Shown: positions 1,446 through 5,678 of the stretch, piece by piece
Position numbering within the stretch: the first letter of the stretch is position 1
Layout of the letters: each line of letters opens with the position of its first letter
DNA from: an uncultured Cytophagaceae bacterium
GTDB taxonomy: Bacteria > Bacteroidota > Bacteroidia > Cytophagales > Spirosomataceae
Reading direction: 5' to 3'
Assembly (NCBI GenBank): GCA_903907745.1
Contig: CAIVPF010000109.1
Coordinates: 1-43,905, forward strand
Length of the DNA stretch: 43,905 nt
Notes under the pieces: generated by a model
Databases searched by the model: none
Seen by the model: only the letters and a program-made list of their open reading frames with translations
Told to the model about the DNA's origin: nothing
Translations under genes and position numbers: made by a program

Positions 1446-1476
1446 AAAAAAGCAATTCTAAAATAGAATTGCTTTT
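1446..1476 (-). terminator. Intrinsic terminator of the tRNA-like gene
   Basis: Perfect 9-bp stem GCAATTCTA / TAGAATTGC around a 3-base loop, with a T6 run on the minus strand side. It lies about 45 bases downstream of the 3' end of the tRNA-like gene and closes that transcription unit. The flanking A/T runs could also let it work on the plus strand. Confidence 0.85.
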
Positions 1477-1520
1477 AACATTACACTTCATCAACAAACT
1501 AAAAATTAATTAATTAAAAT

Positions 1521-1665
1521 GCTGTAGGAGAAGGATTCGAACCTCCAAGGTGTAGTTAGCCGCGACACAGAACTAACTTAGTGGTCAACCCATTATGCCG
1601 CGTTTATCCTAGAATCACCACCCCCGAGACAGGAGGGCACGTCTGCCAATTTCATCACCCTACAG
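1521..1665 (-). ncRNA. Unusual tRNA-like RNA: class II body, GUC anticodon, 74-nt variable region
   Basis: Seen on the minus strand: CTGTAGG at the 5' end pairs perfectly with CCTACAG at the 3' end; an extra G on the 5' side and T on the 3' side can form an eighth G-U pair. The D-arm (GAAATTGGCAGAC) resembles tRNA-Leu. The anticodon stem is CCCTC/GGGGG with 7-base loop CTGTCTC, giving anticodon GTC (1628-1630). The T-arm is canonical: GGAGG TTCGAAT CCTTC. Between anticodon and T arms lie 74 nt (1547-1620) instead of the usual 4-5 or about 10-20. The base after the acceptor stem is C and no CCA is encoded. A perfect -33/-7 promoter and a terminator flank it, so it should be transcribed. An automatic tool might call it tRNA-Asp(GTC), but the body is not Asp-like. 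Whether it is charged or used in translation is unknown. Confidence 0.75.
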
Positions 1666-1699: not shown

Positions 1700-1731
1700 C
1701 AAATATAAATAGGTATTTTTATATATTCAAA
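1700..1731 (-). promoter_or_regulatory. Complete -33/-7 promoter for the tRNA-like gene
   Basis: The minus strand reads TTTG (1731-1728), 20 bases, then TATATTTG (1707-1700). Both elements match the Bacteroidota consensus exactly. The predicted start near 1693 gives a leader of about 28 nt before the mature 5' end at 1665, as expected for a tRNA precursor. Confidence 0.7.
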
Positions 1732-1800: not shown

Positions 1801-2265
1801 ATGGAAAAAAAATTTGATTTAGATCCTTTGGATTTGAAAATATTAGAAATTTTAGTTGCAGATGCGAATTTGCCCTACACGGAAATTGGACAGCGACTTG
1901 ATGTGTCTGGGGGTACAGTTCATGTACGGATGAAAAAAATGGAATCCTTGGGAATTGTTCGTGGAGCACAGCTATTAATTGATTATTCGAAAATAGGTTG
2001 GGACATCAGTGCATTTTTGGGTATTTATTTAGACAAGAGTTCACTGTATGAAGATGTGGCAAAACAACTAGAAAAAATCCCAGAAGTTGTCAATATTCAC
2101 TATACGACAGGTATTTATTCGATTTTTGCTAAAATTATATGTCGGGATACCCAACATTTACGTGAAGTCCTTCATGATAAAATTCAACGTGTCACGGGTA
2201 TTCAACGTACCGAAACATTTATATCCCTCGAAGAAAGTTTAATCCGAAATACCCCTTTATTTTAA
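1801..2265 (+). CDS. Lrp/AsnC family transcriptional regulator
   Basis: A 154-residue protein with the two-part Lrp layout: an N-terminal winged helix-turn-helix (residues 5-60; LDLKILEILVADANLPYTEIG, then the recognition region DVSGGTVHVRMKKMES) and a C-terminal RAM/ACT-like ligand and oligomerisation domain (residues 70-150). Lrp/AsnC proteins sense amino acids or related metabolites and form dimers to octamers on DNA. The start ATG lacks a Shine-Dalgarno sequence, as is usual here. It is followed after about 80 bases by sufB, which has its own promoter. Which ligand it senses cannot be told. Confidence 0.9.
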   Translation: MEKKFDLDPLDLKILEILVADANLPYTEIGQRLDVSGGTVHVRMKKMESLGIVRGAQLLIDYSKIGWDISAFLGIYLDKSSLYEDVAKQLEKIPEVVNIHYTTGIYSIFAKIICRDTQHLREVLHDKIQRVTGIQRTETFISLEESLIRNTPLF

Positions 2266-4660: not shown

Positions 4661-5678
4661 TGATCCAATGTTAGATCCGATTGATTCCGAAGATGACTTA
4701 TTCGAGCATTTCAATTTTGTTGTGGACAAAGGTCAACAATTACTTAGAATAGATAAATATTTATTACTAAAAATTTCGAATGCCAGTCGGTCGAAAATTC
4801 AGGTAGGCATCGAAGCAGGATCCGTTAAGGTTAATAACCTCTTAATTAAATCAAATTATCGGGTTAAGCCTTTTGATCAAATATCTGTCTCATTTTCACA
4901 TCCTCCGCGAGATACCGAAGTTTACCCTGAGAATCTTCCAGTGGACATTTTATTTGAGGATAACGATCTGATTATTGTAAATAAAGAACCAGGGATGGTG
5001 GTTCATCCTGCCCACGGGAATTGGTCTGGGACTTTGGTTAATGGTTTGTTATATCATTGCCAACAACTACCCGGAAATAAGAGTATTCGCCCCGGTCTTG
5101 TCCATCGAATCGATAAAGACACCTCTGGAATTTTGGTCGTGGCTAAAACTGAATTTGCGCTTACGTATTTAGCGAAACAATTTTTCGATCATAGCATAGA
5201 AAGAACCTATTTTGCGATTTGTTGGGGGGTTCCAAAGGTTCCTAAAGGTACTTTGCGAGGAAAAATCACCCGTAATCCGAAGGATCGGAAGGTGATGACC
5301 ATAATTCCGGAAGACGCTGAGGAAGGTAAATTGGCCATTTCACATTATGAATTGGTGGAATCATTTGGTTTTTGTTCCTTATTGAAATTTAATTTAGAGA
5401 CGGGAAGAACCCATCAAATTCGTGCTCACGCGCTTTCTATGGGTCATCCTTTAATTTCAGATTCATCTTATGGAGGAGATAAGATTAGGTTTATGAGTAC
5501 CATGGCTAATTTCAAGACCTTCGTTGAAAATATGTTTAAGCTTTGTCCTCGGCAAGCCTTGCATGCCTATTCTTTGGGGTTTGAACATCCAAGCACTAAA
5601 CAAATGATTCATTTTAACAAGGATTTTCCTAAAGACATGTCAGAATTATTAACAAAATTAAGAGCAATACATGGATAA
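4653..5678 (+). CDS. RluD-family large-subunit rRNA pseudouridine synthase
   Basis: A 341-residue RluA/RluD-type enzyme that converts uridines to pseudouridine in structured RNA, probably 23S rRNA. It has an N-terminal S4 RNA-binding domain (about residues 28-85; RIDKYLLLKISNASRSKIQ) and the catalytic domain from residue 100 (ILFEDNDLIIVNKEPGMVVHP) with the motif HRIDKDTSG, catalytic Asp154, then GRTHQIRAH near 240. ATG at 4653 gives a start overlapping the divergent PLP-enzyme gene; ATG at 4668 is also possible. The 3' end overlaps the acetyltransferase start by 8 bases, so the two are translationally coupled. The exact target uridines cannot be read from the sequence. Confidence 0.92.
   Translation: MSIDPMLDPIDSEDDLFEHFNFVVDKGQQLLRIDKYLLLKISNASRSKIQVGIEAGSVKVNNLLIKSNYRVKPFDQISVSFSHPPRDTEVYPENLPVDILFEDNDLIIVNKEPGMVVHPAHGNWSGTLVNGLLYHCQQLPGNKSIRPGLVHRIDKDTSGILVVAKTEFALTYLAKQFFDHSIERTYFAICWGVPKVPKGTLRGKITRNPKDRKVMTIIPEDAEEGKLAISHYELVESFGFCSLLKFNLETGRTHQIRAHALSMGHPLISDSSYGGDKIRFMSTMANFKTFVENMFKLCPRQALHAYSLGFEHPSTKQMIHFNKDFPKDMSELLTKLRAIHG

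Follow-up and report, generated by a model that had tools for sequence, protein, structure and literature searches.

Several bacteria, among them Deinococcus, Thermus, Bdellovibrio and S. aureus, synthesize asparagine on a tRNA, through the joint action of AspRS and GatCAB on tRNA-Asn. A report on Bdellovibrio describes a relaxed AspRS that acts on tRNA-Asn in the presence of AsnRS, GlnRS and GatCAB, and includes a survey that counts Bacteroidetes among the genera with AsnRS, GlnRS and GatCAB and without Asn synthetase, suggesting the tRNA-Asn route for them (PMC4206432). According to a second paper, the strong Asp determinants are G73, G34, U35, C36 and C38, U1-A72 confers amidation of Asp-tRNA-Asn, and G1-C72, described as crucial for the identity of bacterial tRNA-Asp, blocks amidation of tRNA-Asp together with U20a (PMC9976931). 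A third paper treats the Asp determinants, G2-C71 among them, reports G10 in tRNA-Asp and has C38 and G73 shared by tRNA-Glu (PMC6523644).

Here we describe a family of tRNA-like RNAs from the Bacteroidota that combines a body resembling tRNA-Leu with a GUC-bearing loop of the Asp type, and whose sequence features suggest that it is probably a non-decoding tRNA dedicated to the synthesis of asparagine. We know of no precedent for a tRNA that no longer decodes and functions instead in making an amino acid. One parallel is the staphylococcal non-proteogenic tRNA-Gly, which is also tRNA-like, stands apart from translation and provides an amino acid for another purpose, although it differs from the RNA described here in amino acid, enzymes, structure and purpose.

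Results

An outsize tRNA-like gene with a seven-pair acceptor stem

The window analyzed here is a stretch of 43,905 nucleotides from an uncultured Cytophagaceae bacterium. The gene under study lies near its start and has the following features, in which the acceptor stem and T arm are placed by the alignment of relatives and the D arm by our own numbering.

1522..1664, minus strand: tRNA-like RNA, 143 nt (T1 = 1664, G73 = 1522; C74 encoded at 1521)
1658..1664, minus strand: acceptor stem, 5' strand, 7 bp, UGUAGGG
1523..1529, minus strand: acceptor stem, 3' strand (A72 = 1523; discriminator G73 = 1522)
1639..1655, minus strand: D arm, Leu-like, with a 3-bp stem, GG taken as 18-19 and no U after C20
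1621..1637, minus strand: anticodon-like arm CCCTC-CTGTCTC-GGGGG (GUC at 1630-1628, U37 = 1627, C38 = 1626)
1549..1619, minus strand: outsize variable arm with a 4-bp base stem, the internal motif AUAAA (1607-1603) / CUAAC (1559-1555) and a distal hairpin of variable length
1530..1546, minus strand: T arm, loop UUCGAAU
1700..1707, minus strand: promoter-like box TATATTTG, which fits the Bacteroidota -7 box TAnnTTTG; TTTG at 1731-1728
1448..1476, minus strand: intrinsic terminator with a 13-pair stem and a U-rich tail (shuffles average 0.1)
1801..2265, plus strand: gene for an Lrp/AsnC-family regulator, divergent from the tRNA-like gene and closest to AsnC (157 bits, under the 227-bit cut-off)

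The original prediction of a tRNA-like cloverleaf with fully paired acceptor arms and an outsize body is borne out by a 143-nt unit on the minus strand (1664 to 1522), and the Leu-type D arm and the CTGTCTC loop with GUC that it had described are both present. Its register, however, was one base off. By pairing C1665 with G1522 it had arrived at a C-G pair 1-72, a discriminator C and an eighth acceptor pair, whereas the relatives place U1-A72 and G73 at these positions and show a conserved unit consisting of a 7-bp acceptor, U8, a 5-bp T stem and G73. Of 201 distinct members, 200 encode C74 after G73, and the base preceding T1 varies (C 109, T 58, A 34), so that the eighth C:G pair is not conserved, and with the conserved 7-bp register the 8/5 geometry of tRNA-Sec falls away. 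A tRNA-Sec with an 8-bp acceptor is ruled out by this register, in which the seven acceptor pairs form in 100% of alignment cells. The long variable arm and G73 are shared with tRNA-Sec and with allo-tRNAs, from which the RNA family differs in its 7-bp acceptor, 5-bp T stem and GUC-type loop.

Neither ARAGORN nor the Rfam models call the window gene as a tRNA, and neither calls a tmRNA in the window, in which only three other tRNAs are called by the two. Rfam gives no gathering-level match for the window gene or for five member loci, and nothing relevant at E<=10 for the window gene; ARAGORN makes no tRNA call in 15 of 16 member loci, the sole call being a short form. The family is outside the Rfam 15 list, and no report of it was seen among the papers listed in a search of the open-licence literature. 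Since Rfam 15 omits the RNA and ARAGORN overlooked its longer version wherever this was tried, it is probably absent from genome annotations as well.

The box TATATTTG and its TTTG were matched to TAnnTTTG / TTTG, which we take to be the promoter consensus of Bacteroidota; such a motif lies within 100 nt upstream in 119 of the 201 members, a count made without a shuffle control. Because 35 nt separate the box from T1, RNase P would have to form the 5' end of the putative transcript. Beyond the 3' end, a trailer TTTTTAGTTTGTTGATGAAGTGTAA (window 1481-1505, minus strand) is common to the same-genus members and to one relative from another family (L032).

Covariation and spread of the RNA family

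Taken alone, the window gene folds only moderately better than its shuffles (z -1.71), and the evidence for the RNA is therefore comparative. In an alignment of 57 distinct sequences, the window's included, 99.0% of the cells over 24 pairs hold standard pairs, against 52-67% with the partners slid. Double-sided changes occur in 16 of the 24 pairs and in 116 cells, where shuffling gives 28.5 such cells; this level was not attained in any of 500 shuffles. The family is real, beyond chance pairing. A degenerate tRNA pseudogene is ruled out by this covariation and by the wide spread of the RNA.

By DNA similarity, 44 of 59 related genomes proved to contain the RNA. When named genomes were scanned with a sequence pattern, at least 119 stretches were obtained, from Hymenobacter, Cyclobacterium, Algoriphagus, Dyadobacter, Spirosoma, Saprospiraceae, Chitinophaga, Flammeovirga, Fulvivirga and others. 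We then searched 395 genomes from across the phylum with a covariance model, counting as members the matches of 85 bits or more. These occur in all four genomes of the window's own family (its own genome included), in 10 of 11 in the rest of the order, in 23 of 83 other genomes of the class and in 3 of 297 other genomes of the phylum; the eleventh genome of the order (G047) has a 76-nt form at 71.8 bits. The other model matches listed reach at most 62 bits, and the 19 of these that were typed are all tRNA-Leu by ARAGORN. Bacterial tRNA-Leu, which thus supplies the best canonical matches of the model, shares the D arm and class II layout; unlike the RNA family, it has its own Leu anticodons and a body of about 84 nt, with neither Asp determinants nor an outsize arm. 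For most genomes absence was judged by a stricter search scoring eight candidates each; a permissive model search of 35 genomes (34 non-carriers, eight of them of the class, and G047) yielded no further member, its best other match being 58 bits. A plasmid search gave no match that would point to spread of the RNA on plasmids.

The 201 distinct members were selected by a filter for a TGT start and an ACAG end. From 225 model matches ten were dropped: five truncated at contig ends, three that are canonical tRNAs, a fragment of 57 nt and a tandem copy in which position 1 is A (L057:191-314). Members measure 108 to 195 nt, the exceptions being one of 199 nt that includes a string of N and one of only 76 nt. 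The variable arm can reach some 120 nt; it starts from a base stem of 4 bp and contains, in 171 of 201 members, an AYAAA ... CYAA motif; its distal stem covaries (4.64 of 6 positions paired against 3.23 in shuffles, 165 members). Complete pairing of the T stem requires a bulge of 1-2 nt in 25 of the 201, a feature that should weaken binding of EF-Tu.

Individual members vary further. L199:2039-2114 is a natural 76-nt member without a variable arm, from a genome that has AsnA, and is called tRNA-Asp(atc) by ARAGORN. Members from Cyclobacteriaceae, L116, L066 and L143 among them, carry a palindrome, CGAGCTCG, in the distal hairpin that could permit RNA dimers, and a contig of Flammeovirga pacifica (L102:3688-4630) has the RNA five times in tandem within roughly 1 kb.

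Aspartate determinants are kept and decoding features relaxed

Single positions were scored in 79 distinct rows obtained by DNA similarity or with the family model; the model was trained on sequences chosen by [GA]TC[TC]C in the loop, yet recovered other bases at 34 and 37. U35, C36 and C38 stand in 79 of 79 rows, G34 in 73 (the other six have A, C or U) and G73 in 78 of 78. U1 and G2 (79/79 each), A72 and C71 (78/78 each) and the pair U3-A70 are likewise invariant in this set; outside it, the tandem copy L057:191-314 has A at position 1, and the viral members L301 and L358 differ at position 3. C34 is found in the RNA of G222 and in that of G443, which lacks AsnA. By our numbering U20a is absent from the D loop, and position 10 is variable.

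At the positions flanking the anticodon the picture is different. Position 33 is free (T63 A7 G6 C3, so that U33 is missing in 16 of 79), and position 37 (T68 C7 G4) is a pyrimidine in 75 of 79, contrary to the purine-37 rule for a decoding elongator. With its determinants kept and positions 33 and 37 relaxed, the RNA has retained what AspRS and GatCAB read and has lost much of what the ribosome needs.

That the RNA is an ordinary or minor tRNA-Asp decoding GAC/GAU is nevertheless suggested by the GUC in a 7-nt loop and by the tRNA-Asp call for the short form L199. We consider this very unlikely, given the relaxed 33 and 37, the T stems that need a bulge and the size of the variable arm. Normal tRNA-Asp genes are moreover present in carrier loci; the five canonical ones in three loci have G1-C72 and, by our numbering, U20a. 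With tRNA-Asp the family shares G73, G2-C71 and a loop that departs from CTGTCAC only at position 37, and it differs in having U1-A72 in place of G1-C72, an outsize variable arm and neither U20a nor A37.

Carriers have GatB and lack classical AsnB

The idea that AspRS and GatCAB act on the RNA, and the tests of it, were set down before the enzyme searches. Family searches covered 73 genomes, 41 of them carriers (G047 included) and 32 chosen non-carriers (21 of the same class and 11 others), with GatB taken to represent GatCAB. GatB was found in 41 of 41 carriers, as against 1 of 21 non-carriers of the class. In a sample of 98 genomes of the window's own class, all 38 carriers have GatB but only 3 of the 60 non-carriers do (G099, G210 and G258), a contrast with a Fisher value of 5e-24 that, like the other Fisher values obtained (2e-14 and 3e-8), ignores kinship. 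G210 and G258 have a weaker GatB match, and the RNA was not detected in either. Within two families the same division is seen: in f23 all 11 carriers have GatB and the non-carriers G075 and G171 have neither RNA nor GatB, and in f22 all seven carriers have GatB and three non-carriers do not.

Full AsnRS is present in 41 of 41 carriers and GlnRS in 34. If only those genomes are counted in which AsnRS and GlnRS both exceed the cut-off, GatB occurs in 34 of 34 carriers and in 1 of 22 non-carriers, G071, where the RNA was not detected; a 64-bit GatB match in G152 was left uncounted, being under the cut-off and inside its GlnRS frame. GlnRS is missing in G099 and in 9 of the 11 other non-carriers, so that their GatCAB can serve glutamine. 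Seven carriers are without GlnRS, so that GatCAB has a further role in them. It might be argued that the RNA provides the same route for glutamine, by charging with Glu and subsequent amidation, since GatCAB also makes Gln-tRNA and tRNA-Glu (anticodon UUC) shares U35, C36, C38 and G73. This is hardly credible, however: G34 and G2-C71 indicate Asp, most carriers have GlnRS, and the 10 GlnRS-less non-carriers tested have GatB with no RNA detected.

By tblastn in 62 genomes (340 bits or more), classical AsnB is present in 0 of 41 carriers (best match 139 bits) and in 16 of 21 non-carriers of the class, although among these 16 the match in G110 is only 41% identical and that in G087 crosses stop codons. 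AsnA is present in 4 of 41 carriers (G222, G329, G047 and G218) and 7 of 32 non-carriers, which gives AsnB or AsnA in 4 of 41 carriers versus 17 of 21 non-carriers of the class. Two of the four carriers with AsnA have an odd RNA, that of G047 without a variable arm and that of G222 with C34. In G075, G171 and G103 neither the RNA nor a classical synthetase was detected. Most carriers also encode AsnB-like proteins of about 600 aa or more, which could make Asn.

We note two further observations. The RNA was not found near gat genes in the four gatB stretches searched, one of which is a 6.6-kb contig. AsnRS paralogs in G222 (C2:595933-596853, a 346-aa frame) and G443 (C1:2542190-2542744, a 195-aa frame) match at the C terminus only, and are perhaps an archaeal-type asparagine synthetase or a fragment.

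Independent contrasts and the type of AspRS

An AspRS tree built from 65 genomes, 41 with the RNA and 24 without it, requires at least seven changes in the presence of the RNA, five of them forced by supported branches. There are five supported independent pairs, of which three to four are concordant for RNA and GatB, none is opposite and one to two show no difference; p is 0.125 at best, and with only five pairs this contrast cannot reach 0.05. The contrast of RNA against AsnB/AsnA is even weaker, the mean over the five pairs being 1.4 opposite, 0.1 concordant and 3.5 without difference.

A single AspRS of the bacterial type exceeds the cut-off in every one of the 41 carriers, and no second AspRS was found in them; in G000 its gene is divided between two contigs. 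The RDHGG histidine, which we take to mark a relaxed AspRS, is absent in all 12 carriers aligned and present in three AsnRS-less genomes, where AspRS must be relaxed because AsnRS is lacking. The AspRS of the 12 carriers resembles that of five GatB-less relatives. Without the histidine, an ordinary AspRS together with a carrier bearing GUC is likely.

These results bear on a rival reading, in which the RNA scaffolds or regulates a complex of AspRS and GatCAB, and Asn is formed on tRNA-Asn because AspRS is relaxed, as it is in Bdellovibrio. The same co-occurrence of RNA and GatB would then be expected, the large structured arm, whose motif is conserved in 171 of the 201 members, would suit such a role, and the Bdellovibrio report offers a precedent for a single relaxed AspRS alongside AsnRS, GlnRS and GatCAB (PMC4206432). 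Yet the carriers' AspRS looks like that of the GatB-less relatives and unlike that of the three AsnRS-less genomes, and a scaffold does not obviously need the Asp determinants and U1-A72 that the RNA has kept; we regard a scaffold as unlikely.

An AsnC-like neighbor and carriage by viruses

Of 153 loci, 83 have a gene of the Lrp/AsnC family upstream of the RNA and divergent from it, at a distance that never exceeds 500 nt (median 138). Of the 83 loci 28 are from the same genus, the other 55 include some Aquirufa contigs, and several of the loci are too short to show the gene. The three neighbor proteins that were typed match the AsnC model best; their scores of 157, 173 and 155 bits are under its cut-off of 227 and roughly double those against the next model. 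In E. coli, asnC lies beside asnA. A SufB-like gene is found near the RNA in 45 loci.

Viruses carry the RNA too. A 636-kb phage record has a member amid tRNA genes, and 81 IMG/VR contigs, some of which may be host contamination, carry the RNA; all 81 match the model, one of them cut to 47 nt. In 39 of the 81 the stretch contains no ARAGORN tRNA, and in one contig the member is within 3 kb of a terminase large subunit gene. No AsnC-like gene was present in the stretches examined of these contigs, and no asparagine-related protein was recognized by eye among recurrent viral neighbors. About ten viral members appear by eye to have an extra hairpin in the D loop (L302, L303, L326, L327, L328, L330, L332, L337, L354 and L359). 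We also note, in some viral contigs, additional tRNA-like matches of 121-148 nt at 41-53 bits (L308:7683-7830, L352:5065-5185 and 5270-5412, L312:4907-5049 and L366:9980-10112); these may be different tRNAs that contain insertions, or they may form a second class of outsize RNA.

If the RNA were charged, it might donate Asp or Asn to some other product, such as a lipid, the cell wall or a peptide, and not yield free asparagine. Non-decoding tRNAs that donate an amino acid exist, as with staphylococcal tRNA-Gly and peptidoglycan, and no enzyme that releases Asn is known. We think such donation quite improbable. The commonest neighbor is a regulator of the AsnC type, no transferase was recognized among the recurrent neighbors, viral contigs bear the RNA without a recognized partner gene, and a lack of classical AsnB, and mostly of AsnA, fits a supply of free Asn.

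Discussion

We propose that the RNA serves as a dedicated carrier for asparagine synthesis. An ordinary AspRS would charge it with Asp, because the determinants U35, C36, C38, G73 and, mostly, G34 are present; GatCAB would amidate this Asp to Asn on the RNA, because U1-A72 is present and the U20a of tRNA-Asp is absent; and Asn would then be released to supply AsnRS. The free position 33, the mostly pyrimidine 37, the outsize variable arm and, in some members, the bulged T stem may together keep an Asn-charged RNA with a GUC anticodon from Asp codons, and the divergent AsnC-like gene probably tunes transcription to asparagine. Some features speak against this proposal: U1-A72 and a variable position 10 replace the G1-C72 and G10 of tRNA-Asp, 6 of 79 rows lack G34 and 4 of 79 have G37, and a variable arm of such size might get in the way of AspRS or GatCAB.

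The unusual charging identity raised in the original prediction gains from the Leu-like body with conserved Asp determinants and U1-A72, although not from the geometry of tRNA-Sec on which it had drawn; a tRNA mimic used for regulation, which it had also suggested, is less supported than a metabolic carrier. In comparison with tRNA-dependent Asn synthesis as described, the enzyme set is alike, the classical synthetases are mostly absent and the carrier has the same U1-A72 and G73. What differs is that the carrier here would be a separate, non-decoding RNA with a GUC anticodon, so that an ordinary discriminating AspRS would do.

On balance, we think that the RNA is a dedicated metabolic cofactor that replaces asparagine synthetase in a large part of the Bacteroidota, and that phages carry it as an auxiliary metabolic gene consisting of RNA only. 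If correct, this would explain how numerous Bacteroidota that use AsnRS and have no classical asparagine synthetase are supplied with Asn, and why they retain GatCAB, and it would make the formation of free asparagine by tRNA-dependent Asn synthesis a directly testable question.
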